From Levilactobacillus fujinensis (GTDB lineage Bacteria > Bacillota > Bacilli > Lactobacillales > Lactobacillaceae): a stretch of DNA of 52,378 bases. Shown here in pieces: positions 623 to 37,406 of the stretch (positions within the stretch are counted from its first letter, which is position 1; each line of letters starts with the position of its first letter). Where the stretch lies: NCBI RefSeq assembly GCF_003946335.1, contig NZ_RHNX01000022.1, positions 1 to 52,378 of the forward strand. Reading direction: 5' to 3'. The notes below the pieces were generated by a model. The model saw nothing but the letters and a program-made list of their open reading frames with translations, made no database searches and was not told the DNA's origin. The position numbers and the translations under genes are program-made.

Positions 623-1594
623 CTAAAACGCCGATGGCAACGCAATCTTCCCTGTATCCTTATGGGAAAGTGCAAGCCCATCACGTACGAAATTAGTAAC
701 CCGTTGTAGTTCAGTCTTATTCATAACCTCAAGACTTTGACCATTAATCATCTTTCCAGTACCTTGCAGATGAGTCTGTTGAATTGAACCAGTAGCTGAA
801 CGATAATTTTTAACTAATGATGTCAAATCATCAAAGGACAAATCCGTCTGTACCTGCTTAGATAAGGAACTAATAAAGTCTTGGTTCAGCAATGTTGAAA
901 CTGAACCGCTTTGCTTAACTAGCGCTGTCAAGACCGCACGTTGTCGTGTCTGACGACCATAGTCTCCCTGTGGATCGTCATACCGCATTCGAGAATATGC
1001 TAGAGCCTTGCTACCATCCATATGAGTTTTGACACCTTTTTTAAACGTGTATCCTTCATAAGTAAAACTAAGAGTAGGCGTAACATCTACCCCCCCAATC
1101 TTATCAATTACTTTTTCCATGCCTCCCATATTAATCAGTGCATAGAAATCAATTGGTACATTTAACATGTCCTGAACTGTTATAATTGTAGTTTTTGCTT
1201 GCCCCCAAGCGTAAGCAGCATTAATCTTAGAGGGCGCTGCATCAGTAAATCCAGGAATACTGACAGCCGTGTCCCTTGGGATACTCGTCATTGTAGTCTT
1301 GTTATCCGATGGATTAACAGTAATAATCATCATACTGTCTGTCCGTCCCTTGTAACTACGACCCAAAGCACCAGTATCAGTTCCTAACAGTAAAATTGAA
1401 ATTGGTTTCTTCGCGCTTAGCTGACTGCTAACATCTCGTTCTTTAGTCATACCTGCTGATTTAAAACTGTTGTTCACTGAGCTCTTAATGCTTTGATAAC
1501 GGGTCATCCCATAAGCACCCGTTCCAATAAGTAATAACAGGATTACAATCAAAATTGTGTTTCGAACCTTATGTGTCTTTTTCCCATGTTGCAT
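623..1594 (-). CDS. LCP-family (LytR-CpsA-Psr) glycopolymer ligase, copy A
   Basis: 323-aa membrane-anchored LCP protein, predicted to transfer undecaprenyl-pyrophosphate-linked polysaccharide onto peptidoglycan outside the cell. A short basic N-terminus precedes one membrane segment (residues 11-30). The LCP core follows: GTDTG (71-75), RTDSMM (R84, D86), SIPRDT (R107, D108) and the Arg-rich segment SRMR...GRQTRQR (201-219), which binds the pyrophosphate lipid in this family. Start set at the ATG at 1594, matching copy B; a TTG 12 bases upstream is less likely. It is the last gene of operon copy A. Compared with copy B the protein ends three residues earlier, and no rho-independent terminator follows, because the downstream sequence has been replaced by IS remnants. 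Confidence 0.9.
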   Translation of the reverse strand: MQHGKKTHKVRNTILIVILLLLIGTGAYGMTRYQSIKSSVNNSFKSAGMTKERDVSSQLSAKKPISILLLGTDTGALGRSYKGRTDSMMIITVNPSDNKTTMTSIPRDTAVSIPGFTDAAPSKINAAYAWGQAKTTIITVQDMLNVPIDFYALINMGGMEKVIDKIGGVDVTPTLSFTYEGYTFKKGVKTHMDGSKALAYSRMRYDDPQGDYGRQTRQRAVLTALVKQSGSVSTLLNQDFISSLSKQVQTDLSFDDLTSLVKNYRSATGSIQQTHLQGTGKMINGQSLEVMNKTELQRVTNFVRDGLALSHKDTGKIALPSAF

Positions 1595-1643
1595 ACTACC
1601 ACTCAACCTTTCATACTCCCCAATAATGTGAACTAATCATATC

Positions 1644-2486
1644 TCACTTGATTTGTCGTTGAAACGCATGCAATGCGTCCTGCCACGAAATAATTTTAAA
1701 TCCCGTCGCTTTAGCTTTATCCAAATTCATTACAGAGTGCTTAGGACGATATGCTTTTTGTGGAAACTGCGTTGAATCGACCGCGTTAACTTTAACATCC
1801 TGATTCTTCAAAATTTCACACGCAAATTCATACCAAGAACAACTACCTTCATTTGATAATTGATACAATCCATAAGCGACTCTTTCATTGACACAATACA
1901 TCATAAATTCAGCAAGCGTCTTAGTCCAAGTAGGTCGACCTACTTGATCATTCACTACAGACAACTCATGATGTGTCTTAGCCAGATCTTGCATGGTATA
2001 CACAAAATTCTTACCATATTCACCAAACACCCATGACGTTCTTATAATATAATGCTTAGACACTGTTTCTTGAACAGCCCGTTCACCAGTAAGTTTTGCA
2101 CGTCCATACTCATTCTTAGGCTTTGGGGTGTCATCCTCCAAGTACTCCGCCAAATTGGTTCCATCAAATACATAGTCTGTACTGATATAAACTAAAGTCG
2201 CACCAATACTTTCAGTCGCATGTGCTAGGTTCTTAGTTCCTTGAACGTTAACCGTTTGGTTTACAGTTCTACCCGGCTCCTCTTCTGCAGCATCTACAGC
2301 TGTAAAGGCAGCACAGTCATAAACCACTTCTGGCTTCTCTTGATTAAAGAAACTAACTACCTGTTCCTTATCAGTGATATCCAACTGAGATGTATCTGTT
2401 GCCTTATAAACAATCCCATTAGCATCTAACAAGTGGCATAGCTCCGTACCAAGCTGGCCACTAGCCCCTGTTATCAAAATTTTCAT
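1644..2486 (-). CDS. rfbD: dTDP-4-dehydrorhamnose reductase, copy A
   Basis: 280-aa SDR-fold enzyme (RmlD) for the last step of dTDP-L-rhamnose synthesis: NAD(P)H reduction of dTDP-4-keto-rhamnose in the cytoplasm. The nucleotide-binding motif GASGQLG is at 7-13, the STDYVFDG segment at 102-109, and the catalytic Y127-x3-K131 in YGRAK. Start chosen at the ATG at 2486 (GGAG about 8 bases upstream, same start as copy B). It lies 49 bp before the LCP gene and 149 bp after rmlB, the largest gap in this part of the operon. AT-rich relative to its counterpart at 20286-21128. Confidence 0.93.
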   Translation of the reverse strand: MKILITGASGQLGTELCHLLDANGIVYKATDTSQLDITDKEQVVSFFNQEKPEVVYDCAAFTAVDAAEEEPGRTVNQTVNVQGTKNLAHATESIGATLVYISTDYVFDGTNLAEYLEDDTPKPKNEYGRAKLTGERAVQETVSKHYIIRTSWVFGEYGKNFVYTMQDLAKTHHELSVVNDQVGRPTWTKTLAEFMMYCVNERVAYGLYQLSNEGSCSWYEFACEILKNQDVKVNAVDSTQFPQKAYRPKHSVMNLDKAKATGFKIISWQDALHAFQRQIK

Positions 2487-2635
2487 TTTAATCACTCCAC
2501 TATTGTCAGCCTTGAATTATTGTGCTTTTCTTATCGGCTTCCCATTTGCGCATAAATAATTGAGCCCACTAACTTACTTCTAGCACGATATCAATCGGCT
2601 CAGGCACAATCTGCTTACAATTAGCATTTCGCAGC

Positions 2636-3676
<1,041 letters not shown>

Positions 3677-4258
3677 TTAAATTTCACCATAAACAAATGG
3701 ATTATTCTTCTCAAATTCAGCAAATGTTGGTTGATTGGCATCCTTCTCTGAAGTGATGGCCTGATCAAAATCAATTGGCCATTGAATTCCTAGCTCCGGC
3801 GTCTTAAATGAAAATCCGCCATCGGCTGCTGCGTCATAATAATTATCGCACTTATACAAGAAGTTAACATTATCCGTCAACGTTACAAATCCATGTGCAA
3901 AGCCCTTAGGAACTAATAATTGTCGATGATTGCTTGCAGAAATAATATACCCTTCCCATTGCTTATATGTAGGTGATCCTGCACGTACATCAACAATTAA
4001 ATCTAAAACAGCTCCTGAAACAACCCGAATCAGCTTAGTTTGTGCAGCCTTTCCTCGTTGAAAATGCAATCCACGTAGTACACCTGCATCAGCTGACAAA
4101 GATTGATTGTCTTGAATAAAATTAAAATTAATCCCAGCTTCTTTAAAATCACGATCTGAATAAGTTTCCGTGAAGAAACCACGCTTATCGCCAAAAATTG
4201 CTGGTTCGATGATCTTAACATCTTGTAATTTTGTTTCAGTTACCTTTAATTTTCCCAT
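3677..4258 (-). CDS. rfbC: dTDP-4-dehydrorhamnose 3,5-epimerase, copy A
   Basis: 193-aa cupin-fold epimerase (RmlC), step three of dTDP-rhamnose synthesis. The conserved catalytic residues are visible: H65 in LRGLHFQ, K75, D90 in LIVDVR and Y135 in FLYKCDNY; PKGFAHGF (117-124) is also a family signature. Good GGAG site before the ATG at 4258. The C-terminus ENNPFVYGEI is shared with copy B. 79 bp separate it from the upstream SGNH gene, against about 200 bp in copy B. Confidence 0.95.
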   Translation of the reverse strand: MGKLKVTETKLQDVKIIEPAIFGDKRGFFTETYSDRDFKEAGINFNFIQDNQSLSADAGVLRGLHFQRGKAAQTKLIRVVSGAVLDLIVDVRAGSPTYKQWEGYIISASNHRQLLVPKGFAHGFVTLTDNVNFLYKCDNYYDAAADGGFSFKTPELGIQWPIDFDQAITSEKDANQPTFAEFEKNNPFVYGEI

Positions 4259-4337
4259 ACAATCTCCTCCAATACCTTTTCATCATAGCACAGCTCCATA
4301 TGACACTAACATAATTTCAGAACTTAATAACCGAACC

Positions 4338-5081
4338 TTAAGCTCCTCCATTCTGTAAAATAAAAGCCGCAACTCGCAAGCCAATGATATGATACCCCTT
4401 CTTATTAGGATGCAGAACACCATCCCAAGTTAGTTGGTCCACATTATTTGCATTTATAACTGAGTCAGGTCGCCAATCCAAGGTCGGAACGTTACTTTTT
4501 TTATATACAGCCGCCAAATTATCACACAGTTCACTTTCAGTATAATTAGCCTTATTCTTAGTCTGCATAGCATCCCCAGCAGTATTCGCTGCAGGTACCG
4601 GAACGATAAATGCATTCTGTGGTAAAACCCCCAGTATTTTTACTTTCGGATATGTTCTTTGAATATACTGAATTGCCGCCAATAACTTTGCTGTAACCGT
4701 ATTTAATTCTGCATTGTCACTATAGTCATTAATGCCATAAGCCAGGACAACTGTGTGCACCCCTTTTAAATTATGCGTTTTTAATGCTGAAAGTAAGTCC
4801 CTATCAGAGTCGCCCGTGTTTTTACCACCGTCACGTCCATAGTTTTTTATTCTGACATTTAAGCTCTTTCCAACCCACCAAGGATAGCTTTTCTGTGCAT
4901 GTTGTCCGCCAGGTAGCAGCCCGGCAGTTATTGAATCGCCAAAAAAAGCAAGGGTCTCTTCTGGTGAAGTTGTCGTTGAATCTGAAGTTGTTCTTTTTTG
5001 AGTACATCCCGTAGAAGACAACAAAATGACAAGTACAGCAAGAAATGAGATAACAACGTTCCTATGCCTTAACATTTTCAT
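4338..5081 (-). CDS. SGNH/GDSL-family lipoprotein hydrolase or acyl transferase, copy A
   Basis: 247-aa exported SGNH protein. A signal peptide with a lipobox-like end (SSTGC, C26) suggests a membrane-tethered lipoprotein. All key blocks are present: GDS with nucleophile S50, GIND (N118) and DGVLH (D220, H224). The gene overlaps the upstream acyltransferase-3 gene by 20 bp. In OatA-type peptidoglycan O-acetyltransferases an AT3 membrane domain and an SGNH domain are fused; here the two parts are separate, translationally coupled genes. This suggests a split system that O-acylates the polysaccharide. A secreted esterase is the alternative. The start may be two codons further in, as in copy B. 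Confidence 0.85.
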   Translation of the reverse strand: MKMLRHRNVVISFLAVLVILLSSTGCTQKRTTSDSTTTSPEETLAFFGDSITAGLLPGGQHAQKSYPWWVGKSLNVRIKNYGRDGGKNTGDSDRDLLSALKTHNLKGVHTVVLAYGINDYSDNAELNTVTAKLLAAIQYIQRTYPKVKILGVLPQNAFIVPVPAANTAGDAMQTKNKANYTESELCDNLAAVYKKSNVPTLDWRPDSVINANNVDQLTWDGVLHPNKKGYHIIGLRVAAFILQNGGA

Positions 5082-6141
5082 TCACACCTTTCCTCTTTCT
5101 AAATGGGTATGCTCTATTAAGAAAGAGAGAGCGCACAACGGGAATGTGGGGTATCACTACTACTGCCAGAATAGGAATCATCATTCTATACAGAATGACC
5201 ATTATAATCTTTAAATATACATTAGTAGTAAACCCAGCCGCCATAATAAGAACCGGAACATTTGAATATATAAGATCAATACTGTAAAAACACAAAATAA
5301 TTATGGAATTTCTTCCCAAAAGGGCTAAAAACCTTGATGTTATCTTCAAGTGCTCTAATAACTGTGACACCTTGACAATCACAAACGTTCCTGCCACAGC
5401 ACTTACAATGGCTAAAAGACTATCTGGCGTTTTAAGTGACACCAAGCCAAAAGTCTGTTGCGTAGAGACTACAAACCAAATAATTAATGCCACCACAAAT
5501 AACTTTCCACTTTTCCATTCGAGTAGTTTTCCCTCCTTCGCCAAATATCCAATATACATAAACACTGACGCAAAGAGTGCAGAGTTGATAGACAATGGTA
5601 AAAGCCAATAAATACTAATAAGCCTACCTAACACCGCTAGTGTACAAAATATGAGCAATCGACTTATATTTTTTGACGGAGAATCTTGTGTCTTCACAAT
5701 TACAAAATTAAAAATTAATTCCGTAATTGCTAATGCCATCAAGAACCATATTGGACCTATAGCGAGAACGGTCGTTGAAAAGGGCATCCGAGGAGGAACG
5801 CCTACGCCATACAAAGTCATATTCAGTAGTGCCTTCACTGACGGAGGAAAGCCGATAGATAAAAACTTCGGAAAAAACTCTCTATATAGAAAAACTAATC
5901 CCATTAGTCCTGCAGTTGTATAGTATGGTAGTAGAATATTCGACCATGCCCCCCGTGCTTCCTTATCAAAAGTTTTCATATGATAAAGGTACCCACTAAA
6001 AATAAAAAAGATTGGCATATGAAAATTATAAATCATTCGTCCAAATGTTGAATCAGTATATTGATACAGTGAGTGCCCAATAATGACACATAGCATAGCA
6101 ATAGCACGTGCGATATCAATCCACATTATTCTTTTTTTCAC
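5062..6141 (-). CDS. Acyltransferase 3 family membrane protein, copy A
   Basis: 359-aa multi-spanning AT3 (OafA/YrhL-like) protein with about ten hydrophobic segments. The N-terminal signature is clear: WIDIARAIAMLCVIIGHS with the conserved H23, then NFHMPIFFIFSGY (39-51). AT3 proteins pass acyl groups, usually acetyl, across the membrane to a sugar acceptor. It lacks the C-terminal SGNH domain of OatA; the adjacent overlapping gene supplies that. Its start follows the GH43-like gene by 23 bp. Predicted to decorate the repeat unit or the finished polymer with O-acyl groups. Confidence 0.88.
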   Translation of the reverse strand: MKKRIMWIDIARAIAMLCVIIGHSLYQYTDSTFGRMIYNFHMPIFFIFSGYLYHMKTFDKEARGAWSNILLPYYTTAGLMGLVFLYREFFPKFLSIGFPPSVKALLNMTLYGVGVPPRMPFSTTVLAIGPIWFLMALAITELIFNFVIVKTQDSPSKNISRLLIFCTLAVLGRLISIYWLLPLSINSALFASVFMYIGYLAKEGKLLEWKSGKLFVVALIIWFVVSTQQTFGLVSLKTPDSLLAIVSAVAGTFVIVKVSQLLEHLKITSRFLALLGRNSIIILCFYSIDLIYSNVPVLIMAAGFTTNVYLKIIMVILYRMMIPILAVVVIPHIPVVRSLFLNRAYPFRKRKGVNENVKA

Positions 6142-6164
6142 TATCTCACCCTTTTTTACGTATT

Positions 6165-7286
6165 CTAACGTATTTCAAACACGCTAAAATGACGAATCAT
6201 AAAGTCAGCTTTCAGCGGATAACGTTTAGACACTACACGATTATTTTTAAAGATAACAGCTTGAACCCCATAAAATGTTTCATGTTTATTGTACAAATCG
6301 AAATATAGAAGATTTCCCTTTCTACGATATAATTCAGTTGGGCCTTCTGGTGTCTGTCCAGATTGAATAGGCAGCGTAACCGATTTAGTCCTTTTAAAAA
6401 CATTTCCATCGATTGATGTTGCTCTCACAATCCGATGCCGCTGTTCATCCTTAGCCCACAATTTATACACACCATGTTGATAAACCACATGTGGATCAAT
6501 TAGATTTGAAAAATCACCGTTTACTTTAATCTTTTGCAAATCACTCAATTCTCCAGTTTGAGAATTAAATGAATAGCTATATAACTGGAATGTTGACCCA
6601 TCTATAGAGTTTGAACTCACGACACGGTAGGCACCACTCTTCAGTCGATAAATTTCAGGAGCCCAAATTCTCTGAAATTGACTACCTAGATTAAAACCTG
6701 GATTAATGACATAATGCCATTTTTGAAAATTTGACGTCCACATGAGCCCTTCTGTATAAATAATCCACCATCGATTCCCAACCTTAGTTATATTCGGATC
6801 ACGGACAGCAATATTAGGGTAGTTTATAGCCAACCGAGTCCACTTGATACCATCATTAGATAGTAAAATACGTAGCCGATCCGTCTCACTAGTCAACTTC
6901 TTGTAATTTTGCTTATATCGACCCAAGCCCTTATTGAGTACTTGAAACGATGCCCCTATATAGTGATAATTAGCTATCTCTCGTTTCAATTGTTTGCTAT
7001 TTGCTGTTGGTTTATACCGAACGACGACTTTTCTTTTCTTAGTCTCAAACCTCTTTTTTGGCTTGAAACCAATCTTATACCCCGTTATAGAAAGCTGTTT
7101 TTGACTTAACCGGCTTCCAACTCTTCCCTCAATCACTTTTTTCGGCTGAATCTGAGTACCCAGCTGGTCCAACATCGTAACTTCAATTGTAGACTTCGGC
7201 CATACTAACCAAGCACAAACACCAATCAATATTAATGAACTCACTATCAGAATTGCTTTTCGCTTTAACTTCAAGTTAATGTTCAC
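6165..7286 (-). CDS. Membrane-anchored MucBP/GH43-like glycosidase with intact catalytic acids, copy A
   Basis: 373-aa protein with an N-terminal signal anchor (about 11-30), a MucBP-like beta domain (about 33-92: VTMLDQLGTQIQP ... GRVGS ... TGYKI ... VVVRYK), and a five-bladed-propeller domain resembling glycoside hydrolase family 43. The three acids expected of GH43 are present in order with plausible spacing: D163 in VRDPN (base), D264 in IDPHV (pKa modulator) and E314 in PEGPTEL (acid). APEIY (209-213) and WAKDEQRH (277-284) are also propeller-like. Predicted to act outside the cell on the polysaccharide; many GH43 enzymes cut furanosides and the locus encodes a galactofuranose pathway. 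Substrate is inference; a transglycosidase is possible. Confidence 0.72.
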   Translation of the reverse strand: MNINLKLKRKAILIVSSLILIGVCAWLVWPKSTIEVTMLDQLGTQIQPKKVIEGRVGSRLSQKQLSITGYKIGFKPKKRFETKKRKVVVRYKPTANSKQLKREIANYHYIGASFQVLNKGLGRYKQNYKKLTSETDRLRILLSNDGIKWTRLAINYPNIAVRDPNITKVGNRWWIIYTEGLMWTSNFQKWHYVINPGFNLGSQFQRIWAPEIYRLKSGAYRVVSSNSIDGSTFQLYSYSFNSQTGELSDLQKIKVNGDFSNLIDPHVVYQHGVYKLWAKDEQRHRIVRATSIDGNVFKRTKSVTLPIQSGQTPEGPTELYRRKGNLLYFDLYNKHETFYGVQAVIFKNNRVVSKRYPLKADFMIRHFSVFEIR

Positions 7287-8156
7287 CTACCCCTTTGGTA
7301 CAAAATGCAGGCCACTAAACGTCCCCTTTAAGACCGTCAAGCTTCTTCTGAAGCGATGATTAGGCGCAACAATAATTACTTTCAGGCTAACATACAAATC
7401 ACGCATAAAAGTTCTTAATGTTGTTATTCGACTTTTATGCTTACGACAAATGTACATTTCATTTCGATAGAGATAGTAATACCGTGAAATTCGACTAGCA
7501 TTATCTCGATATATTAAAGGAGCTTGATTACTAGCTGATTCATGTATCACTATTGCACCAGGAACATAATACCCATTTCCAACCTTGGCTAGACGTAATG
7601 TAAATTCTGTATCATCATGCCAAATAAAAAAGTCCTCAAAAGGCAATCCAACTCTGTTTACACGCGTTCGACTGAAAAATAACGATACAAAGCTTGCTTC
7701 ACGGACCTTGATGATTCCCTTCATTGTCGATTCTGACCAATCGTTAGCGATGGGAGGCACATTCATCGGGGAATTGTCTTTCCAGCGCACATTCGCTGTT
7801 AGAAAGCCAAAATTAGGTACTTGCTTACGGGCCTTGAGTAATTCCTCCAACGCTTTTTCTGTTGGAATAGTATCATCATCCATCACCCAAAAATACTCTG
7901 CTGAAGTTTCACTTATAGCTGAAGAAATTCCCCGTTTGAATCCACCTGCACCACCATAATTATTATCTAGTCGATGATAAATGAGCCGATCATCATCCAT
8001 ATGCTCAACAATATCTTGCGTGTCATCTGTACTATGATTGTCAACCACAAGAACATGCTCCACACTTACCGACTGACTCAGAATAGCATGTAAACATTTT
8101 TGTAGTAGTTTAACCCGGTTGTAGGTAACTACAACCGCACAAACTGAACTTTCCAC
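7287..8156 (-). CDS. GT2 glycosyltransferase, GlfT/rhamnosyltransferase-like, copy A
   Basis: 289-aa cytoplasmic inverting GT-A enzyme. CAVVVTYNR opens the fold (residues 6-14), the metal-binding MDDD lies at 92-95, and the NNYGGAGGFKRG segment at 65-76 is the kind seen in galactofuranosyltransferases (GlfT) and WbbL-type rhamnosyltransferases. With glf in the same operon, galactofuranose transfer is a reasonable guess. Start chosen as the GTG at 8156, preceded by GAAGGG and matching the ATG of copy B; an upstream ATG at 8174 would overlap rmlA by 14 bp. The stop abuts the start of the GH43-like gene directly. Confidence 0.85.
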   Translation of the reverse strand: MESSVCAVVVTYNRVKLLQKCLHAILSQSVSVEHVLVVDNHSTDDTQDIVEHMDDDRLIYHRLDNNYGGAGGFKRGISSAISETSAEYFWVMDDDTIPTEKALEELLKARKQVPNFGFLTANVRWKDNSPMNVPPIANDWSESTMKGIIKVREASFVSLFFSRTRVNRVGLPFEDFFIWHDDTEFTLRLAKVGNGYYVPGAIVIHESASNQAPLIYRDNASRISRYYYLYRNEMYICRKHKSRITTLRTFMRDLYVSLKVIIVAPNHRFRRSLTVLKGTFSGLHFVPKG

Positions 8157-8160
8157 AATA

Positions 8161-9036
8161 CTAAATCCCTTCATCCTTTAAAATTCTAATCAAATACTGC
8201 CCATAATCATTCTTATTGAACCGTTGGGCTAACGCTTCTAGTTGTTGTGCATCAATATAATGCATCCGATAAGCAACTTCTTCAATGGATGCAATCTTCA
8301 AATTCTGCCTACGCTGAATTGTAGAAATAAAGCTAGCAGCGGACAGTAGGGAATCGTGTGTCCCAGTATCTAACCATGCATAACCCCTACCCAGTAAAGT
8401 TACGTTCAACTCATGATGACTTAAATACCACTTGTTCACATCAGTAATTTCAAGTTCTCCACGACCTGAAGGCTGTATATTCTCAGCGATATCAACAACA
8501 TTGTGATCATAAAAGTACAATCCCGTTACTGCATAATTACTCTTAGGACTTTTTGGCTTTTCTTCAATAGAAACTACTTCATGCTTTTTATTAAAGCTCA
8601 CAACCCCAAACCGTTCTGGATCAGTCACTTGATAGCCTAAGACAGAAGCACCACTATCCAATTTTGCTGCCTTTTGTAATAACGTACTCAATCCACTACC
8701 ATAAAAGATATTATCTCCTAACACCAGACAAACGGAATCATTTCCGATAAACTTCCGACCGATAATGAAAGCTTCAGCCAAGCCATTGGGTTTTTCCTGA
8801 ACAGCATACTGCAGGTTAATTCCAATTTGACTACCATCACCTAACAATTTTCTAAATTGGTCTTGATCTTGGGGCCTAGTAATAATTAAAATATCACGAA
8901 TTCCGGCCAACATTAAAACAGAAAGTGGATAATAAATCATTGGTTTATCATACACAGGCACTAATTGCTTAGACACACCCAACGTGATTGGATAAAGTCT
9001 TGTACCGGACCCTCCGGCTAAAATAATTCCCTTCAT
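8161..9036 (-). CDS. rfbA: Glucose-1-phosphate thymidylyltransferase, copy A
   Basis: 291-aa RmlA that makes dTDP-glucose from glucose-1-phosphate and dTTP, the first step toward dTDP-rhamnose. The nucleotide-binding GGSGTRLYP (8-16) and [12 protein letters not shown] (21-32) motifs are present, with PNGLAEAF and [10 protein letters not shown] further on. Full length for class I RmlA. It is separated from rmlCBD by four genes, whereas many gene clusters keep rmlABCD together. 14 bp after the upstream GT2 gene. Confidence 0.95.
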
Positions 9037-9050
9037 AACTAGTCTCCCCC

Positions 9051-24862: not shown

Positions 24863-24885
24863 GATCTCACCTTCCTTACCCGGAC

Positions 24886-26880: not shown

Positions 26881-26881
26881 A

Positions 26882-27757: not shown

Positions 27758-27770
27758 ACACAGTCTCCCC

Positions 27771-28724: not shown

Positions 28725-29876
28725 CTACTGTTGATTGTAAATATCTTCGAATGCCCTGATAAACTTCTGCGGCGAATAGCACCGTATAGCCCGTGCGCGT
28801 GAAGCAGCCCCCATTCGGGAACGCAGGTCAGCGCTGTCAACCAATTTTTGAATACACTGGGTCAGCTCGCCCACGTCAATCGGGGTGGCGAGAAAACCAT
28901 TAAGGCCTTCCTGAACCATCTCGATTACGCCCCCCTGTCGGAATCCCACGATTGGCTTGCCCGCCGCCATTGCTTCCAAGACGACTGTCGGCAGCGGGTC
29001 GGGATTCGTACTGGGCAACACAAAGACATCGAACAGGTGATACACGCTGGGGAGGTCGTTCCTAAAATCCTTTAAGACTATCTGATTGGCCACCTGACTC
29101 CCAGCAATCGCTGTCTCCAAATCTTGCTTACGCTTTTCTTCACCGGCAAAGACACCACCGATAAAGATAAGTTTTAGCTTGGGATTGCTCTTCAGTAAGG
29201 GAATCATTGCCTGGAGCAAGGTCGTTTGCCCCTTCCAAGCATTGATGCGTCCAACCATACCGATGACGATAGCATCGGTATGCACTTGAAATTCCGCTCT
29301 CAGGTTCGCCGAAACCGGCATTGGGCGAAACTTTTCCGTATCGACGCCATTGTAGACGACCCGAATTTTTCGCGGATTCACCAGTTTCGAGCTCACCAAA
29401 TGGTCCCGAACTTCCTTTGAAACGGCCACAATTTGATTGGCAAACCGGCCGACCGCAAACGACGTTACCAAGAATGCAATCCGGGGACACGTAATGATCT
29501 CATGGACGTGCCAGACTAGCTTTGCTCGCAATAACCGTTTGAGATAAATGCCCTCCAAAACGGCTAACGTGTTGGCATGGATAATGGACACGTTCTGCTG
29601 TTTAAGCAACGCAAATATCTGGCGACAGCTATGCCGATACTGCTTCAAGTAACGTAACATCCCCCGTGGATTGAAGTATTTTCGCCGCAGGATAGGGTAG
29701 TCGATGATGTGGACCTCAATGTGTCGTTGCCGTAGTTCATCGACCAACGGCCCCCGTGTTGGCAAGACCACGATTGGATGAAATTCGTGTGGATTCAACT
29801 CGGTGACCAAGTTCAATAGGATTCGATCGGCACCGTAGAGTTCCGCACCAGCGTGGAGAAATAGAATTGTCTTCAT
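28725..29876 (-). CDS. GT4 family glycosyltransferase, copy B
   Basis: 383-aa GT-B enzyme with HAGAELYGADR at the N-terminus, GRINAWKG, and LEAMAAGKPIVGF in the donor site. ATG overlaps the previous gene's end by four bases. Same predicted role as 10005-11156. Confidence 0.88.
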   Translation of the reverse strand: MKTILFLHAGAELYGADRILLNLVTELNPHEFHPIVVLPTRGPLVDELRQRHIEVHIIDYPILRRKYFNPRGMLRYLKQYRHSCRQIFALLKQQNVSIIHANTLAVLEGIYLKRLLRAKLVWHVHEIITCPRIAFLVTSFAVGRFANQIVAVSKEVRDHLVSSKLVNPRKIRVVYNGVDTEKFRPMPVSANLRAEFQVHTDAIVIGMVGRINAWKGQTTLLQAMIPLLKSNPKLKLIFIGGVFAGEEKRKQDLETAIAGSQVANQIVLKDFRNDLPSVYHLFDVFVLPSTNPDPLPTVVLEAMAAGKPIVGFRQGGVIEMVQEGLNGFLATPIDVGELTQCIQKLVDSADLRSRMGAASRARAIRCYSPQKFIRAFEDIYNQQ

Positions 29877-31033
29877 GATTTCTCCCCCAGAAAAATCGCC
29901 TCGTACTCGCTGACAATGTTGTCCCAGTTGTAGGCTTGGGTAATTCTATCCTTGGCAAGCGTCCCGTACGCCTGGCGTTGGGGGTCATCCCAGGTATCAA
30001 CCTCATTGATCAGCTTCGACAACGAGCCCTGATTCTTGGTCCAATACTTCGCCGCTGCTGCCCCGACCTCATGGTTGAAGCCAACGTTCAGCAAGAGATT
30101 TAAGGGCGTCGACGCTAAGGCCTCCAGCAAAGAGGGATTCGTCCCCCCCACTTCATGGCCATGCAGGTACGCGAACGCATTCTCCCGGATAACCTTTAAT
30201 AACTTTTGATCATAGACCGTGCCGACAAATTGGATGCGGCTATCCTGACTGAAATGCGTTTCTTGTTCCAAATCGTCGTAAAACCTATTCTGTTCGACGT
30301 TGGTGACGATGACCAATTTACGCTGCGTCTTGCTTCGCATGAACTCCTTAATCATGGTTTCATAGTTGTTCTCTGGGACAAACCGCCCCACGACTAAGTA
30401 ATACGCGTTCAGCTCTACCTGACGATGATCAAACCACGCTTGTTGGTCCACCGTGACCTGGCCTTTTCCGTGCGCCACGGTTGCTCCGTACGGCACGAAA
30501 CAGGTCTGCAACCGGTTACTCTCATAGTTCTTGTGAATGTATTTTTCGATATTGATACTGTCACAGATGACCAGGTCAACCTGACGAACCATCATTTTCT
30601 CGGACAACTTCCAGTAATGACGCACGGGCTTGCTCCATTTCGCACGCAGCCACTCATGACCATCCGGATTGAGATAACAAGCGACGCCCAGTTGATGTAA
30701 CTTTCTTAGGTACGGGGCCAGAAAGGGACCAATTCTACAGGCCAGAATGTACACCACCGCCGACTTCACGTTATTTTCTTTGACGTGGGCAATCACCCAT
30801 TTCAAAGCCTTCAAATCATACAGAATCGCTTTCCCCGGCCCAACGTTTGGCACGGGCACATTGAAACAGGTGGCGTCATTATACGAAAAGGTGCTCTCTT
30901 CTTCGCTTAAGCAAGCCACATAGTAATGTAATGCCGGTGACTTCTTTAGCCCCGTCAAGTTCTCAACAAACGTTTCAAACCCACCATAATTAGCGGGAAT
31001 CCCTTTTGAACCAATGATATAAACGTTCTTCAC
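29873..31033 (-). CDS. DUF1972/GT4-type glycosyltransferase (Cps2T-like), copy B
   Basis: 386-aa counterpart of 11156-12316. Start set at the GTG at 31033 (protein VKNVYIIGSKGIPANYGG), because this matches the ATG of copy A exactly and a GGGGAG-type site lies upstream; an ATG at 31054 would add seven unconserved residues. It overlaps the extended end of wzy by 44 bp, against 4 bp in copy A. Confidence 0.85.
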   Translation of the reverse strand: MKNVYIIGSKGIPANYGGFETFVENLTGLKKSPALHYYVACLSEEESTFSYNDATCFNVPVPNVGPGKAILYDLKALKWVIAHVKENNVKSAVVYILACRIGPFLAPYLRKLHQLGVACYLNPDGHEWLRAKWSKPVRHYWKLSEKMMVRQVDLVICDSINIEKYIHKNYESNRLQTCFVPYGATVAHGKGQVTVDQQAWFDHRQVELNAYYLVVGRFVPENNYETMIKEFMRSKTQRKLVIVTNVEQNRFYDDLEQETHFSQDSRIQFVGTVYDQKLLKVIRENAFAYLHGHEVGGTNPSLLEALASTPLNLLLNVGFNHEVGAAAAKYWTKNQGSLSKLINEVDTWDDPQRQAYGTLAKDRITQAYNWDNIVSEYEAIFLGEKS

Positions 31034-32198
31034 TTCCAACACTCCCCACAGCATTATTAGCTAAGACACAGATGACAAACGGATTGTAAGCAATATCTAG
31101 CAGATGATGATCAATGATGCTTGAGATACAAATGATGACTAAGACCAGTGGTAATAAGTACGCTTGATGTTCCACGTTGAAACGAATGGCATGACTCAAG
31201 CCAAACAGGTAACACCCCAGAAAAACGATTCCAAAACTCAGTAAGACCTTGATATACGAGGAATCAATGAAGAAGTACGACAGGTTTGTGCCGGCCGTTG
31301 TTAGTCCTGTTGGAAAGGTCAGCCCCCCACTTCCCTGCTGGAAAACATACTGGCCAAACCACCGCATGGGATACTCGTAAAGCGCCAAATGCCCCATTGC
31401 CAAGCGATGCGTAAAGAAGCCATCGATTTTGACAAAAATTGTATTTGTTGGCGTAAAGAGCCACGACGCACCAATCGATAAGGCGGCCATGAGTACGGGA
31501 AATAGGTATAGCCAGCGATCGAACTTCTTCATCTGCGTGTTCGACAGTCGCCGGTAGTCCATCGCGGCTAACAGAATTAAGATCAGCAGTGCAGTATCCA
31601 ACTTCGCCTTTGTCAGCAGGAACACGAGTATGGCCAATACCACTGGAATTAGGAACTCCAACTTTTTTAGACGTTTCCCGCGAACGTACACGTACGCTAG
31701 ACACAGATAGAAAATATGCGCCGCAAAGTCGGTGCTGTACAAAAAACCGAAGGCATAACGCGTACTCCCGTTAACCTGATAGTGATAGTTATCGACGATG
31801 CCGACCAAGGCACTTCCAATTGTGAGTGCAATCAGTCCCAGTGCCGTCCAAAAGTAAATTTTAATCACGGTACTGGACCGACAATTCAGGCTGCTGAGCA
31901 GAAACAGCATCAACACCACGATTGACGTGTCCCCCGAGTTTTGATAGATCAATACCGCCAGTAGCAAGCCCCCAAAAACACCTAATAGCTGCCGGTCGCT
32001 GTATCTATTCGTCAAAATTCGCCCGACAAATAGTGCCAAACAGAGGTACTTAGCCAGACTAAAGACGGCGTTTGGGATCAGAGCGGAGAAGAGGGTTGTT
32101 TGCAGGAAGGTATACGCAATATACAGGAACGTTCCCAGGTAATAGATGCCCAGCGACAACTGCGCTATTCGCTGCGGATGTTTCAAATGATTAGACAT
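30990..32198 (-). CDS. Wzy-type polysaccharide polymerase, copy B
   Basis: 402-aa membrane polymerase, similar topology to copy A. The last ~20 residues (from about VGSVGSEERLYH) have no counterpart in copy A, because the reading frame stays open into the next gene; the change looks like loss of the original stop or an indel near 31040. The TM core, including the HRLAMGHLALYEYP loop, is well conserved. Confidence 0.8.
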   Translation of the reverse strand: MSNHLKHPQRIAQLSLGIYYLGTFLYIAYTFLQTTLFSALIPNAVFSLAKYLCLALFVGRILTNRYSDRQLLGVFGGLLLAVLIYQNSGDTSIVVLMLFLLSSLNCRSSTVIKIYFWTALGLIALTIGSALVGIVDNYHYQVNGSTRYAFGFLYSTDFAAHIFYLCLAYVYVRGKRLKKLEFLIPVVLAILVFLLTKAKLDTALLILILLAAMDYRRLSNTQMKKFDRWLYLFPVLMAALSIGASWLFTPTNTIFVKIDGFFTHRLAMGHLALYEYPMRWFGQYVFQQGSGGLTFPTGLTTAGTNLSYFFIDSSYIKVLLSFGIVFLGCYLFGLSHAIRFNVEHQAYLLPLVLVIICISSIIDHHLLDIAYNPFVICVLANNAVGSVGSEERLYHWFKRDSR

Positions 32199-32763
32199 CT
32201 AACTCCCCCTTTCCCCGCCGCCTGATCAGTAGCCGTAACACCTGGCCAATTTCCAATCCCAAGAGAAGTGATATTATCAACGCATAGCCGACACTGGCGC
32301 CTTGCTGCTTGAAACTCGTGTGCTGATCAATTCGCACGTCTTTGGTTGGTAAGTAGGTCGTTAACGTGTAATACATGCTCGCCGTGACCTGTTTTCCCAT
32401 GGCCATCGCCAACTGGGGGTCACGCGCTGTCGATGTAATTGTCAGCGCGTTGCCGTGAACAACGGGTTGCGTCTCGATGCTACGAATCAATTGCGCTTGG
32501 CTGACCTCAACGTTGTAGTCCTTTTTCAAGGCAGTCTGCGCCGAGCGAATCACCGTTGGATTCTTTAACATCGTCTGATACACCGGAATCGATAGCGAAT
32601 CCCACTGCCGGTTCCCCCTATTTTGAACGCTAATGCGGCTCACAAAAACCGACTGATTATCGCCAATAAAGATGCTAGCAAATGCCAGACACGCGATGAT
32701 TGGGAAAAGGAATAGTGGCCAGTCCTTTCTAATGGTTTTAAAAAAGGTGTATAAAGTTTCCAA
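32191..32763 (-). CDS. Short Wzz/YveK-like chain-length determinant, copy B
   Basis: 190-aa two-helix protein with the same sizes and 8-bp overlap with wzy as copy A. Here too no tyrosine kinase accompanies it. The extracytoplasmic SVFVSRISVQN segment after helix 1 is almost invariant between copies. Confidence 0.75.
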   Translation of the reverse strand: METLYTFFKTIRKDWPLFLFPIIACLAFASIFIGDNQSVFVSRISVQNRGNRQWDSLSIPVYQTMLKNPTVIRSAQTALKKDYNVEVSQAQLIRSIETQPVVHGNALTITSTARDPQLAMAMGKQVTASMYYTLTTYLPTKDVRIDQHTSFKQQGASVGYALIISLLLGLEIGQVLRLLIRRRGKGELDV

Positions 32764-32774
32764 CCGACTTCCTC

Positions 32775-33896
32775 CTAATCAGCGCCTAGCTTGATAACGC
32801 CAAATTTTTGAAAAGCAAACTGACCACCTAACGTGATTGGCGTGGTCTTCGTCAAAATCTTGGACTGCATAAACGCGCCATTGTAAGCCAGATCACTCGA
32901 TTCATCGTAATAGTATGAGCTATAGACGATGCCCCGAACCTTGCCAGCCTCATTCAAAGCAAAACTCGGCGCATAATAGCAACTGCCTTTTGCTGGAACA
33001 ATCTTCCGGACCAACTGATATTTTCCAGTAAGCGTTTTGGATTTTTTAATGTAAATAATCCCCGAATCTTGCGCGCTATAGGTCAAGTAGTAGGCATCGC
33101 GGCCCTTATACAGGCTGGCGGACATACTTGCCCCATCGACGCCGCGAATCCGCTTCGCCTTTGTCAATTTGGGCTGACCGGTACTATCGTTGAAGGGGGC
33201 CACGAAACTTTCCAACGTATGGCCCTTAGGCGCCGGTGCCATAAACACCATGCTGGTCTTCGTATCAACGTGCACCAAGGCCGGCGCGATAATCTCTTGA
33301 TACTTCTTGGACGGATTCGTCTTAATCACTTCCCAGTTACTCAGATCCGTAGAACGGAGGACGCCACCGGTATACGCGATGAACCAAAACTCCCCTAGCT
33401 TGAATAAGGTTGGATCTTGAATATCAACGTTGGGATAGTTGATACTGAAGGTATGCCAGTCACTCAACTTGTCGGCGTATAGAATCCGTAACCGGTTATC
33501 ACTTTGGTCGTATGGCACCGACTGGACACCATTGAACGTTTTGGTTGTGACGTCCTGCGCGGAAACGCCAATGTATTTGGCCTTCAACAAGTTGTCCAGT
33601 GACGCCACCGTCTTGGGATGATAGACCACTTGTCGCTGCGTGGTCCCGTACGCATACCTAAACTTGTAGTGGTCCCGCTTGAGGGTGTACCCAGGAATCC
33701 GTGAAGCCGTCAACTTGTAAATTGAATTCGTTCGCCCAACCGTCTTTAGCGGTGCCGTCATCGGTGTCCCATTCTCATCCACAAAATTAACAATAATGGT
33801 ACTGCTCGAATTAAAGTAACTTACTAGACCGATGACGAGCAGGAGGGCGGTCACAATCAGGCTATTCCACATAACACTTCGTTGTTTCGGATTCAT
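32775..33896 (-). CDS. Membrane-anchored MucBP/GH43-like protein lacking catalytic acids, copy B
   Basis: 373-aa counterpart of 14053-15168: anchor helix, MucBP-like domain (VNFVDENGTPMTAPLKTVGR ... IPGYTL) and propeller. As in copy A, only the first acid is retained (IQDPTLF); the second site is GASMSASLY and the EGP motif is absent. Loss of the same two acids in both copies means the non-catalytic form predates their divergence. Start ATG at 33896, GGAGG upstream. Confidence 0.68.
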   Translation of the reverse strand: MNPKQRSVMWNSLIVTALLLVIGLVSYFNSSSTIIVNFVDENGTPMTAPLKTVGRTNSIYKLTASRIPGYTLKRDHYKFRYAYGTTQRQVVYHPKTVASLDNLLKAKYIGVSAQDVTTKTFNGVQSVPYDQSDNRLRILYADKLSDWHTFSINYPNVDIQDPTLFKLGEFWFIAYTGGVLRSTDLSNWEVIKTNPSKKYQEIIAPALVHVDTKTSMVFMAPAPKGHTLESFVAPFNDSTGQPKLTKAKRIRGVDGASMSASLYKGRDAYYLTYSAQDSGIIYIKKSKTLTGKYQLVRKIVPAKGSCYYAPSFALNEAGKVRGIVYSSYYYDESSDLAYNGAFMQSKILTKTTPITLGGQFAFQKFGVIKLGAD

Positions 33897-33921
33897 CTAA
33901 CAAGGACCTCCACTTCTCCCA

Positions 33922-35346
33922 TCACTTCTGTCGGCTTTTCAAAAAGTAAAGACCATCCCGAAGAATATCTGGCTTCAATATCGACAAAATCCCAAAGTAG
34001 ATTCCGATTCCTAATGTCACTTGTAGTGCTAAACTAACGGCCGTGACACTCATGGTCATGTTCAGCCAAAACACAGGAATAAACATTGTCACAGCGGCAA
34101 CTAGAAACTTCCACCCATCGGCAAATAGATTGCGGTAACTAACCATATCTCGAATCACAAACAGCTGATACGCCGTCACGACCACTTCCGAAATAACCGT
34201 CGCAATCGTCGCGCCACTCACCCCTAAGGTCATGATCAACGGCACGTTGATGACAATATTAGCCAACGCCCCGTACGTGACCGAGGCGGTATAATCCTTG
34301 ACGCGTTTCAAGGGCATCAGGTACTGCAAGCCGATGACATTACTCCACCCAATCAGCAGAGCGACCGGCGCCTCGATGATGATCAACTGGCTGACAATGC
34401 TAAACTTTGGCCCGTAGTACAGGGGAACCAGCGAGTTGGCAATCGCCGCTAAACCAAACATCAAGGGCAACGCCAACAGGCTTGAAAAACTAAATGATTT
34501 ATACAGCAGTCGGTTCAATCGCCGCTGACTTCCCTGCGCCGCTAGATGTGCCATGTGTGGTAACATCACCGTCCCGGTGGCAGTAATCACCGCCAAGACC
34601 ATCTTGACCAGCTTATCCGCAAAATCGTAGTAACCGGCTGCCGTCACGGAGTCGAATTGTCCCAGCATGGTTCGATTCAGCTGCAGATAGACTTGCGTCG
34701 CAATCTGTGGAATAAATAACACGATAGTTGGTTTAAGATGACTTATCATGCCTGCAAAATTAATTTTCGGTTTTCCCACGACAGTGTGTAAATACGGCCA
34801 AAGCGTTAGGTTACCTAAAACTTGGGCTGCACCTAAAATCATGATGTAAATGCCAACGTCAGACCTACTCTTAACCAGCGTGAATATCGCGATCAAAGAG
34901 GCAATCTTCACCAATGAATTCCGCAAAACCGTCTTTTTAAAATCCTCCATCCCCATAAACAACCATGAGATATCGAAGACACCCGCGATGATCCACAGCG
35001 ACTGGAGCAGAAAATAACCTTTATAGGTGGTTTGAAATAAAACGAAGATTACAAACAACCCATACGCGACAACGACCGTGACTACTTGCAGGAGCTCAAT
35101 CTCCCAAAAAGTTTTGGTGCGTTGTTCGAAATCATCACGATGATACGCAATCTCTCGGTTACCATAAACCGTGATTCCTAAGGTTCCCAGTAGCAAAAAG
35201 TACGTCATTATGGAATTGGTATACGAATTAATGCCGACACCCTCAGGTCCGAGAACCCGGGCAATATAAGGGACCGTGATAAAGGGAACTATCAGCGTCA
35301 GCAATTGATATCCCGCGTTATACATATAGTTGCGAACAACATTCAT
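33922..35346 (-). CDS. Wzx-type lipid-linked repeat-unit flippase, copy B
   Basis: 474-aa MOP-superfamily flippase, MNVVRNYMYNAGYQLL start. ATG at 35346 chosen (GGAG upstream); a TTG five codons earlier is possible. The upstream gap to the PGT gene is about 270 bp against 134 bp in copy A because of an inserted dispersed repeat (35524-35612). Confidence 0.9.
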   Translation of the reverse strand: MNVVRNYMYNAGYQLLTLIVPFITVPYIARVLGPEGVGINSYTNSIMTYFLLLGTLGITVYGNREIAYHRDDFEQRTKTFWEIELLQVVTVVVAYGLFVIFVLFQTTYKGYFLLQSLWIIAGVFDISWLFMGMEDFKKTVLRNSLVKIASLIAIFTLVKSRSDVGIYIMILGAAQVLGNLTLWPYLHTVVGKPKINFAGMISHLKPTIVLFIPQIATQVYLQLNRTMLGQFDSVTAAGYYDFADKLVKMVLAVITATGTVMLPHMAHLAAQGSQRRLNRLLYKSFSFSSLLALPLMFGLAAIANSLVPLYYGPKFSIVSQLIIIEAPVALLIGWSNVIGLQYLMPLKRVKDYTASVTYGALANIVINVPLIMTLGVSGATIATVISEVVVTAYQLFVIRDMVSYRNLFADGWKFLVAAVTMFIPVFWLNMTMSVTAVSLALQVTLGIGIYFGILSILKPDILRDGLYFLKSRQK

Positions 35347-35523
35347 GCCATTAAACTCCAATCGCCCTTACGTATCAGTGAATCATTTAATTATCGTCAC
35401 CATTAACGTCCTGTTTTCCAGCAAGGATGACCATTATCTGTCGGCGCCGGGTTCAGCTGACTAAGTTACTTACCAGTAAGAATCAATCCCGTCCGCCAAA
35501 CATTCATACCATTAGGTTCATGT

Positions 35524-35612
35524 GAGTTGCCCGTACCCTTCCGGTCCATATCCGGCGGCCGGTAAGGCGTAGGGCTCACTGAACTGCCCCCCAACATCAG
35601 TAAGTCACCGCG
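35524..35612 (+). repeat. Dispersed intergenic repeat, copy 1 (inside operon B)
   Basis: The core CCATATCCGGCGGCCGGTAA and flanks align with 48786-48882 (plus strand) and with 42365-42460 (minus strand). It lies between the PGT and flippase genes of copy B and is absent from copy A, so it seems to have inserted after the copies diverged. Confidence 0.6.
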
Positions 35613-35619
35613 AAGCTTA

Positions 35620-36258
35620 CTAATAGGCATCATTGGGACTAATAATGATGCGAAATGTCTTGAGCAGAATCACAAAATCGACCCAGATGTTGGCCTCTCG
35701 GATATACTTCAGGTCCAACGCAACCATCGTCTCAAAGCTCACATTGTTTCGCCCACTGATCTGCCATAAACCGGTACAGCCTGGCACGACTGACAACCGC
35801 TGCACGTCTGCCAAGCCATACTCCTTTACCTCCCTAGGCAGTGGTGGTCGCGGTCCGACCAGTGACATGTTACCCAAAAGGACGTTCACCAGCTGGGGAA
35901 GTTCATCCAGACTGTGCTTGCGAATAAACTTTCCCACCCTGGTGATTCGGGGATCCTCTTTCATCTTGAACATGGCGCCATCAACATCGTTGTACTTTAA
36001 CAACATTTTTAATTTTTTGTCGGCATCCGTCACCATTGACCGGAATTTAAACATCTTAAATCGACGGCCATCCTTGCCGATCCTGGTTTGAGAATAGAAC
36101 ACACCCCCACGCGGATCGTCGATTTTAATCGCAATCGCGATGACTAAAAAAACTGGCCACAAAATAATTAAGGCAACCAAACTCATAATCAAATCAAAGA
36201 CACGTTTACAAATGTGATAAGCTCGTTTTTTCTGGACGCCATCTGGATCAGCTGTCAC
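35620..36258 (-). CDS. Undecaprenyl-phosphate sugar phosphotransferase (monotopic PGT), copy B
   Basis: 212-aa initiating transferase with HSLDELPQ and GPRPPLP motifs. GTG start at 36258 chosen because it matches the GTG start of copy A and has GGGGGAT upstream; an ATG at 36291 would overlap glf by four bases and add 11 residues. Both copies end PNDAY. Priming enzyme of operon B. Confidence 0.92.
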   Translation of the reverse strand: MTADPDGVQKKRAYHICKRVFDLIMSLVALIILWPVFLVIAIAIKIDDPRGGVFYSQTRIGKDGRRFKMFKFRSMVTDADKKLKMLLKYNDVDGAMFKMKEDPRITRVGKFIRKHSLDELPQLVNVLLGNMSLVGPRPPLPREVKEYGLADVQRLSVVPGCTGLWQISGRNNVSFETMVALDLKYIREANIWVDFVILLKTFRIIISPNDAY

Positions 36259-36287
36259 TTTGGAGATCCCCCTTCCCCAAACTTTCA

Positions 36288-37406
36288 TCACTCTAATTCC
36301 TTTCTTGCCGCTACCAACGCCGAATGAATGACCTGGTGCATGTCAAAATACCGATATTGCCCCAGTCTGCCCCCAAAAATGACATTCTTTTCATTCTTAG
36401 CCAAGGCTGCATATGCCTTATAAAGGTCATTGTTTTTTACAGTATTGATTGGATAGTATGGCTCATCGCCCCGTTGCCAGGCCTTTGGATACTCGCGGGT
36501 GATAATCGTCTTGCCTGCGTCACCTTGACCAAATTCGAAATGCTTATGCTCAATGATTCTGGTAAACGGCGTTGCTGCGTCCGTGTAATTAACCACGGCA
36601 TTTCCTTGATAGTTGTCAACGTTTAACTCTTCCGTTTCAAATTTCAGGGACCGATACGCCAGCTCACCCAGCTGATAGTTAAAATATTGGTCGATCATGC
36701 CACTGAAAATAATTTTGGGATATGTCTTCAGGTATTGCGCCTGGTTATCAAAAAAATCCACACCCGTTTCAACCGTAATCAGGTCGCTAGCCAGCATCTT
36801 TTCCACAATCTGGGTATAACCCCCGATTGGAATACCCTGATAGGTGTCATTAAAATAATTGTTATCAAACGTGTACCGGACCGGTAAGCGCCGAATGATA
36901 AAGGCGGGCAAGTCCTTGGCCTGTTGGCCCCACTGCTTTTCTGTGTACCCTTTGATCAATTTTTCATAAATATCCGTGCCTACCAACGAAATTGCTTGTT
37001 CTTCCAGGTTTCTCGGTGCACCGGTCAATTGCAGACTGGCCCGCTGACGTTCAATCTCTTGCTTAGCCTCAGCCGGTGTCCGAACACCCCACAGCTCACT
37101 AAAGGTATTCATATTGAAAGGCAAGTTGTACATTTTCCCCTGGTAACTCGCCAGCGGACTATTCGTATAGCGATTAAACGTCGCAAATTGATTCACATAA
37201 TCCCAGATTTCCTGATCGGAAGTGTGGAAAATATGGGCGCCATACTGATGGACCTGAATCCCATCGATTTCTTTGGTATAAATGTTCCCAGCAACGTGGT
37301 CCCTTTTCTCAATCACTGTGACCCGCTTATGATGTAACGCCGCTTCATGCGCAAAGACCGCACCAAAGAGACCAGCCCCGACAACTAGGTAATCATCCTT
37401 AGTCAA
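36288..37406 (-). CDS. glf: UDP-galactopyranose mutase, copy B
   Basis: 372-aa Glf with GAGLFG, GAHIFHT and the C-terminal GGRLGQYRYFDMHQVI block. First gene of operon B. Same length as copy A and highly similar, apart from codon choice. Two Glf enzymes supplying the same UDP-Galf pool are biochemically redundant, which makes the retention of both operons notable. Confidence 0.96.
   Translation of the reverse strand: MTKDDYLVVGAGLFGAVFAHEAALHHKRVTVIEKRDHVAGNIYTKEIDGIQVHQYGAHIFHTSDQEIWDYVNQFATFNRYTNSPLASYQGKMYNLPFNMNTFSELWGVRTPAEAKQEIERQRASLQLTGAPRNLEEQAISLVGTDIYEKLIKGYTEKQWGQQAKDLPAFIIRRLPVRYTFDNNYFNDTYQGIPIGGYTQIVEKMLASDLITVETGVDFFDNQAQYLKTYPKIIFSGMIDQYFNYQLGELAYRSLKFETEELNVDNYQGNAVVNYTDAATPFTRIIEHKHFEFGQGDAGKTIITREYPKAWQRGDEPYYPINTVKNNDLYKAYAALAKNEKNVIFGGRLGQYRYFDMHQVIHSALVAARKELE

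Follow-up and report, generated by a model that had tools for sequence, protein, structure and literature searches.

The window analysed here, the whole of contig NZ_RHNX01000022.1 (C19; 52,378 bases without an ambiguous base) from the draft genome of Levilactobacillus fujinensis, carries two complete surface polysaccharide operons of 18 genes each in tandem, operon A (623-18548) and operon B (19265-37406). The two are homologous gene for gene and deeply diverged, and the pair probably goes back to a cassette exchange that put a foreign, diverged version of the neighbouring operon into a variable slot, not to a recent duplication. On sequence comparison B is the native operon, whereas A is the diverged and probably foreign set, which lies where related species carry a variable cluster of another kind.

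Two Intact Operons in Tandem

Both operons are on the minus strand in head-to-tail order, with B first in the direction of transcription and A behind it. The original prediction, made from the sequence before any database search, held that all 18 genes recur in the same order and on the same strand, with near-identical lengths and nearly the same overlaps. The recurrence was borne out in 18/18 colinear pairs, and the widespread frameshifts which the prediction had thought capable of overturning it are absent, all 36 frames of the two operons being open. Counted from the promoter, the order is glf, priming transferase, wzx, MucBP protein, short Wzz-like protein, wzy, Cps2T-type rhamnosyltransferase, glycosyltransferase (GT) of family GT4, GT2, rmlA, GlfT1-like GT2, GH43-type propeller protein, acyltransferase, GDSL hydrolase, rmlC, rmlB, rmlD and LCP. 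Nearly the whole protein could be aligned in each pair, although the lengths quoted for one pair as 212/212 residues become 212/223 by the longest-frame rule. The predicted likeness of the overlaps stood, the spacings being similar at most of the 17 junctions (37, 140, 12, 79, -20, 23, 0, -14, 14, 0, -1, -4, -8, 11, 28, 68 and 23 in A; -35, 104, 9, 206, -14, 23, 0, -11, 13, 0, -4, -65, -8, 11, 25, 258 and -4 in B); start-codon choice may be behind some of the larger differences. The 716 bp between A and B hold no open reading frame (ORF) of at least 90 aa, and no insertion sequence (IS) was seen there.

Divergence and Base Composition

The pairwise alignment proposed along with the prediction gave 18 homologous pairs with 65.0% (MucBP protein) to 93.8% (RmlC) protein identity over 190-479 aligned residues, yet synonymous sites were found to be saturated, with a proportion of synonymous differences (pS) of 0.71-0.87 and a nonsynonymous divergence (dN) of 0.04-0.24. 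Per gene the nucleotide sequences of A and B differ by 20-33%, third codon positions agree in 41-51% and four-fold sites in 23-42%, and the longest exact run common to the two operons measures 31 nt. With a nucleotide difference of this size and no longer exact run, A and B should seldom recombine with each other, which would keep the pair stable. The composition changes as well: GC amounts to 0.374 in A, compared with 0.496 for B and 0.489 for the flank on the right, GC at third codon positions ranges per gene from 0.25 to 0.35 in A and from 0.52 to 0.66 in B, and the codon-usage distance to seven flanking genes is 0.173 for A and 0.070 for B.

No direct repeat was found between the boundaries of the two copies when positions 1-622, 18549-19264 and 37407-37837 were compared among themselves by blastn; the best match (51 nt at 71%, E 0.13) is the shared promoter block described below. 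A recent tandem duplication of the Haemophilus influenzae type b cap kind is ruled out by the saturated synonymous sites, the 31-nt longest run, the lack of boundary repeats and the synteny of B.

Operon B and Its Counterparts in the Genus

A search with a two-row alignment of the putative polymerase Wzy in 35 genomes of the genus returned matches in five, four of them close: two in the present genome and one each in L. andaensis 866-3 (G002), L. enshiensis HBUAS57009 (G007) and L. koreensis JCM 16448 (G013), the fifth genome (G028) giving a weak match. In all three relatives the operon is single, colinear with B, and set among largely the same neighbours. Upstream, LCP2, a permease and asnA are common to B and 3/3 relatives, the lipoate ligase to 2/3 (one partial), and TrkH likewise to 2/3, the stretch of L. 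enshiensis having ended before TrkH. When 18 genes were compared with three genomes, minus the acyltransferase (AT3) of L. koreensis, B was nearer than A to the relative in 53/53 comparisons, and the identity between B and the relative exceeded that between A and B in 51/53. Synonymous divergence (dS) between B and the relatives was 0.59-1.77. In unrooted gene trees A forms the longest branch in 16/18 cases, the exceptions being RmlC and GT4, and also in the concatenated tree of 6,104 columns, while the Wzy tree holds a clade of B-type sequences without A (support 99/99). In the B-type operon of L. koreensis, only a 54-residue match is left of the acyltransferase gene (L039, about 33607-33796), so that the polymer there may be less acylated.

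In this context an ancient tandem duplication should be considered, which would have preceded the species split, one copy then drifting to low GC and being lost in the relatives. It would account for the same gene order and the adjacency of the operons, the branching of A's LCP at the base of the B-type LCP clade, and the position of A's Wzy, which is 72-74% identical to its counterparts in Levilactobacillus B operons versus 51-54% to those of Lactiplantibacillus and unnamed relatives. However, the cluster behind B is a different one in three relatives, and the saturation between A and B, set against the dS between B and its relatives, means that the duplication would predate the group and would need the loss of A in three relatives together with a GC shift of a whole operon. 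This origin is regarded as quite unlikely.

A Variable Slot Behind the Native Operon

Directly downstream of the B-type operon, 3/3 relatives have a different low-GC cluster with wzz, wze, wzh and a priming transferase. According to the ORF lists, the remainder consists of glycosyltransferases and flippase- and polymerase-like membrane proteins, which differ among the three species, with an LCP gene last. The variable genes of this slot have a GC of 0.32-0.34 and wzz-wze-wzh one of 0.38-0.40, versus 0.515-0.533 for the fetched parts of the B operons in the same genomes; along these lines, lower GC has been reported for gt, wzx and wzy genes of lactobacilli (PMC6843789). Low GC being usual in the slot, that of A fits a slot cassette and names no donor.

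The DNA at the A/B boundary is slot-like. Positions 18756-18944 (minus strand) match the DNA upstream of the relatives' slot cluster, at 77% over 190 nt and 81% over 157 nt for the L. koreensis and L. andaensis promoter regions, and at 82% over 60 nt in the third species, from which it appears that A is transcribed from a promoter of the slot type. In B, the promoter and leader (37407-37837, minus strand) are conserved in the three relatives. The leader of A (18549-18593, minus strand) is weakly like that of B (31/45 bases) and was not listed by blastn at E values up to 1; a B-type origin of this leader has accordingly little in its favour. The framing of one operon as a second copy of the other, as in the original prediction, is not supported, given the saturated synonymous divergence, the differing base composition, the closeness of B to the relatives throughout and the location of A at the site of other species' variable cluster.

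Eight genomes could be compared at the asnA anchor: two have no cluster, two have one, three have B and a variable cluster, and one has B and A, the right-hand anchor being conserved. The gene LCP2 (37838-38908, minus strand) forms this anchor in the window. No cluster was found over about 40 kb in G003 (tblastn and ORF list) and G025 (tblastn with the queries of this study only), and one classical cluster lies behind LCP2 in G030 and G032 (about 40 kb), with rmlB between in G032. G005 and G018 were covered over 20 kb only, and G018 gave only asnA.

These data point to a Levilactobacillus polysaccharide hot spot beside asnA-permease-LCP2, which in one species group contains the inherited 18-gene operon B followed directly by a variable slot with a different low-GC polysaccharide cluster. 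In the present strain the slot cluster would then have been replaced by A, a diverged low-GC version of the neighbouring operon, with A presumably read from a slot-type promoter and B from its own; the loss of the earlier cluster was probably aided by the IS66 and IS30 elements at the far end.

A promoter-like block, TTAAT...CNATAGTATAAT (minus strand), occurs before both operons, at 18836-18885 for A and 37681-37730 for B, and the same block precedes both clusters of the three relatives, which hints at a common control. Conserved TATAAT blocks are located at 18836-18841 for A and 37681-37686 for B (minus strand). A promoter consensus scan returned about the same number of sites as in shuffled sequences; the promoter assignment is thus taken from conservation only. 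A likely terminator behind B (18939-18984) consists of a 15-nt perfect inverted repeat with a 16-nt loop, which the terminator scan with its loop limit of 8 did not list, and a weak terminator-like stem-loop is seen in the leader of B (37555-37583, minus strand). A phase-variable promoter was considered and dismissed, since 18400-19400 and 37300-37900 hold no inverted repeat except the terminator-like one at 18939-18984.

The Far End of the Slot

The left edge of the window (1-294) is one end of an IS66-family element, whose first ORF (24-206, minus strand; 60 aa) has no Pfam match, and a second IS66 terminal remnant lies at 456-531. A complete IS66 copy in G030 has TnpB- and TnpC-type genes. 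The gene at 24-206 was rejected as a unique synteny anchor, because this first ORF of IS66 has copies elsewhere, with matches in 7/35 genomes of the genus. Contig C61 of the same genome (6.9 kb) carries the genes found downstream of the slot in the relatives, together with an IS30 element and a glycosyltransferase gene (GC 0.33), and has the opposite end of IS66 at the contig edge. In L. enshiensis IS66 likewise follows the slot LCP, and the two contig ends have 99 identical bases in common inside this element. The order B-A-IS66 remnant-downstream genes is therefore likely, although it is not contiguous in the present genome. The lone low-GC glycosyltransferase on C61 (L064, 5782-6795), between IS30 and the IS66 end, has 23-32% matches to the glycosyltransferases of the clusters examined; it is possibly a remnant of the cluster that A replaced.

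Weighing the Cassette Exchange

Several observations speak against the proposed exchange or loosen its hold, and are collected here. B was not nearer to the relative than to A in 2/53 comparisons (RmlC with L. andaensis ties, GT4 with L. enshiensis is lower), and the tree of the GH43-type protein (8 rows) did not resolve the place of A among six Levilactobacillus-type rows. Neither a donor nor an A-like sister turned up: nothing close lay outside the genus in 397 genomes of the family, where the next Wzy scored 193 bits versus at least 785 inside the genus, in 395 genomes of the order, a draw that also missed the three known relatives and so could miss a donor, or among 72,556 plasmids, and a scan of genome contigs gave the three relatives and no donor. 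In the protein database, searched with Wzy (the best 7,999 candidates by word sharing being scored), the GH43-type protein and the MucBP proteins, nothing came near A beyond two contigs; Lactiplantibacillus and unnamed proteins matched at 51-55%. The description of A as foreign is thus drawn from composition, codon usage and trees, and low GC, common in variable parts of exopolysaccharide (EPS) clusters, is by itself no proof of a foreign genome. The slot-type promoter, moreover, could have arrived with A from a donor of the same arrangement. The join from the left end of the window to C61, on which the left-anchor genes of this genome sit, crosses IS66 and is not contiguous, and contig C29 also starts with the same IS66 end. 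One candidate relative of A, the partial protein P0043, was not supported as such and falls beside G002 and G013 (80/90).

The original prediction had itself raised an assembly artefact of two strains, and a chimaera or a mixed culture, with A from another organism, would fit the abrupt GC change at the A/B boundary, the end of the contig at an IS66 repeat next to A, the draft state of the genome (3.0 Mb in 103 contigs) and the listing of the GH43-type protein of B on a single contig of 52,378 bases. On the other hand, A and B lie on one contig without Ns, completeness of the genome is put at 100% and contamination at 0.66%, and the DNA between the operons is similar to this clade's slot promoter region. 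Furthermore, the protein database places A-Wzy, B-Wzy and the two MucBP proteins on two contigs each, the longest having 53,996 bases for all of them, and likewise for the GH43-type protein of A; a second, slightly longer contig thus appears to hold both sets, but it could be another assembly of the same reads. An artefact is accordingly rated very improbable, with the single listing of the GH43-type protein of B counting the other way.

The divergence is uneven across the proteins. The ratio of the A-B dN to the mean dN between B and its relatives, with a median of 1.6, reaches 4.2 in LCP, 2.2 in Wzy and the Wzz-like protein, 2.0 in the MucBP protein and 1.95 in the priming transferase, an excess which suggests that the polymers may differ. 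From here one arrives at a variant of the exchange in which the operons make clearly different polymers, as a naturally maintained binary capsule, and in which it is of consequence that polymerase, length control, ligase and surface proteins have diverged. The glycosyltransferases and the acyltransferase are 71-81% identical between A and B, and for every gene but GT4 this is lower than the identity between B and the relatives, which would fit the variant; but the dN ratios of the four glycosyltransferases (0.97-1.70) and the acyltransferase (1.32) indicate no excess divergence in the sugar-adding steps, and an altered sugar or linkage is not required. The variant is possible, though on the doubtful side, and the cassette exchange as such remains the explanation that we favour.

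Protein Families and the Predicted Polymer

All 18 proteins of A were scanned against Pfam or NCBIfam; eight of B were scanned, and the other names in B follow from identity to A. All genes of A are given by their coordinates on the minus strand. For rhamnose, RmlD (1644-2495, TIGR01214), RmlB (2636-3664, TIGR01181), RmlC (3677-4258, TIGR01221) and RmlA (8161-9036, TIGR01207) are all over the cut-off, and a Cps2T-type beta-1,4-rhamnosyltransferase (11156-12316) reaches 583 bits versus a cut-off of 500 (NF046071). UDP-galactopyranose mutase Glf (17430-18548; PF03275, TIGR00031) is accompanied by a GT2 (7287-8174), whose nearest named model is the galactofuranosyltransferase GlfT1, at 87 bits well below the cut-off of 330. 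A second GT2 (9051-10004, PF00535) and a GT4 (10005-11156, PF00534/PF13439) follow; together, the glycosyltransferases of A match PF00535 (twice), PF00534 and PF09314. A GDSL/SGNH acylhydrolase (4338-5081, PF13472) adjoins a membrane acyltransferase of family 3 (5062-6141, PF01757).

The priming hexose-1-phosphate transferase (16768-17406, PF02397, 227.9 bits) was found in both A and B in a genome search, the Wzx flippase (15206-16699, PF01943, 106 bits) of A is 84% identical to that of B, and an LCP-family polymer-to-wall ligase (623-1606, PF03816, 159 bits) ends the operon. The putative Wzy polymerase (12313-13476) has no Pfam match in A or B and no NCBIfam match in A; a distant 26% tblastn match leads to a protein annotated as polymerase, and the name, given here, follows from size, position and look. 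The short Wzz-like membrane protein (13469-14041), without a family match, was likewise named here. A tyrosine-kinase control module Wzd/Wze/Wzh (EpsBCD) is lacking, the Pfam or NCBIfam scans of the 18 proteins of A having shown neither a kinase nor a phosphatase, while a module of this type is present in the relatives' slot cluster (Wze, L043, TIGR01007).

In 5/5 operons of this type examined there is a pair of membrane-anchored paralogues, one with and one without GH43-like catalytic motifs (6165-7286 and 14053-15177 in A, 24886-26007 and 32775-33896 in B). In A, the first is the putative GH43-type propeller protein with motifs RDPN, WAPE and EGPT, and the second, a MucBP protein (PF06458), aligns as its paralogue minus the two later catalytic motifs. 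GH43 glycoside hydrolases are described as five-bladed propellers with an Asp, Asp, Glu active site (PMC9278983). The predicted structure of the MucBP paralogue (pLDDT 36) was unusable, and therefore no fold is claimed.

Taken at face value, each operon could prime the polymer by its priming transferase, add rhamnose through RmlABCD and the Cps2T-type enzyme and probably galactofuranose through Glf and the GlfT1-like enzyme, O-acetylate, flip and polymerise the product, and attach it to the wall by LCP. Both sets look functional and most likely direct the same or a closely related O-acetylated, wall-linked rhamnose/galactofuranose polymer. The prediction that each operon is a self-sufficient assembly line agrees with this, both being complete and apparently functional, each with a priming transferase, flippase, putative polymerase and LCP ligase. 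Further still, though tentatively, one may picture a natural, stable diploid of one capsule type, in which two xenologous lines are expressed from different promoters, parts are exchanged at the protein level and dosage or chain length is set by their ratio; undecaprenyl phosphate and sugar nucleotides would be shared, and Wzy/Wzz or LCP possibly mixed. Were this true, a variable capsule slot could take up a foreign version of the adjacent fixed operon.

Relation to Known Systems

The usual account of capsule and EPS diversity is that of a single locus with swapped content. Here the swap seems to have yielded two complete, homologous and deeply diverged operons in tandem, at a Levilactobacillus hot spot beside asnA where, in one species group, a fixed operon is combined with a slot of variable content. 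The pair offers a natural test of mixing between the assembly proteins from two related lines, and of persistence where near-identical tandem copies would recombine; it also advises that composition and synteny be checked before tandem homologous operons are called a duplication.

In Lactiplantibacillus plantarum WCFS1, the three clusters cps1-cps2-cps3 occupy one variable 49-kb region with transposase genes between them; cps1 has glf, an acetyltransferase, wzx, wzy and a wzd homologue but no wze/wzh, and rhamnose is lost when this cluster is deleted (PMC3539956). The likeness lies in several polysaccharide clusters being adjacent in one variable region, cps1 being likened by gene content and not by sequence. 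The WCFS1 clusters, however, differ in content, and cps1 and cps3 are described as being without a priming transferase, whereas both neighbours here are of the same 18-gene type and complete. For the tandem duplication of H. influenzae cap-b, flanking IS1016 copies are regarded as the driving force, and bexA is usually truncated in one of the two loci (PMC6535587). There, likewise, a capsule locus is present twice in direct succession together with insertion sequences, but in the present case both sets are intact, the divergence is saturated, no repeat is common to the boundaries and no IS was seen between.

Binary-capsulated pneumococcal transformants, reportedly called unstable in the title of a 1969 paper, are a further parallel. 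These laboratory strains have two capsules after genetic exchange, and their merodiploid structure was called undefined (PMC3784515). The likeness is two capsule sets in one cell after a genetic exchange, which is probable in the present case; the present pair differs in residing in a sequenced natural genome and in lacking long identical tracts. Finally, the cpsWc cluster of L. plantarum LTC-113 is plasmid-borne, derives from Weissella cibaria and has three truncated genes (PMC8256895). There, too, a lactobacillus acquired a foreign Wzx/Wzy cluster that includes an LCP of its own, whereas A is chromosomal and intact, occupies a slot and is homologous to the operon next to it. No such pair in lactobacilli was found in the literature on tandem, binary or horizontally acquired clusters, covered mostly at the level of abstracts and with subscription papers largely outside. 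The parts are thus known in kind, and what is unusual is the natural tandem of polysaccharide operons of the same type and deep divergence.

Other Loci in the Genome

A third, classical cluster lies on contig C46 (L057, 333-8654), with LCP, wzz, wze, wzh, an epimerase, a priming transferase, glycosyltransferases and a wzy-like gene; it adjoins genes that by eye look phage-derived, and its tyrosine-kinase control module was likewise assigned by look. It is unlikely to be the displaced slot cluster, its Wze and Wzz being 49-51% and 40-45% identical to the slot type, while slot-type proteins are 81-83% (Wze) and 69-81% (Wzz) identical among themselves. Directly upstream of asnA (43322-44335), a T-box leader is found at 43020-43271 (plus strand), with a score of 93.4 versus the Rfam gathering score of 93.

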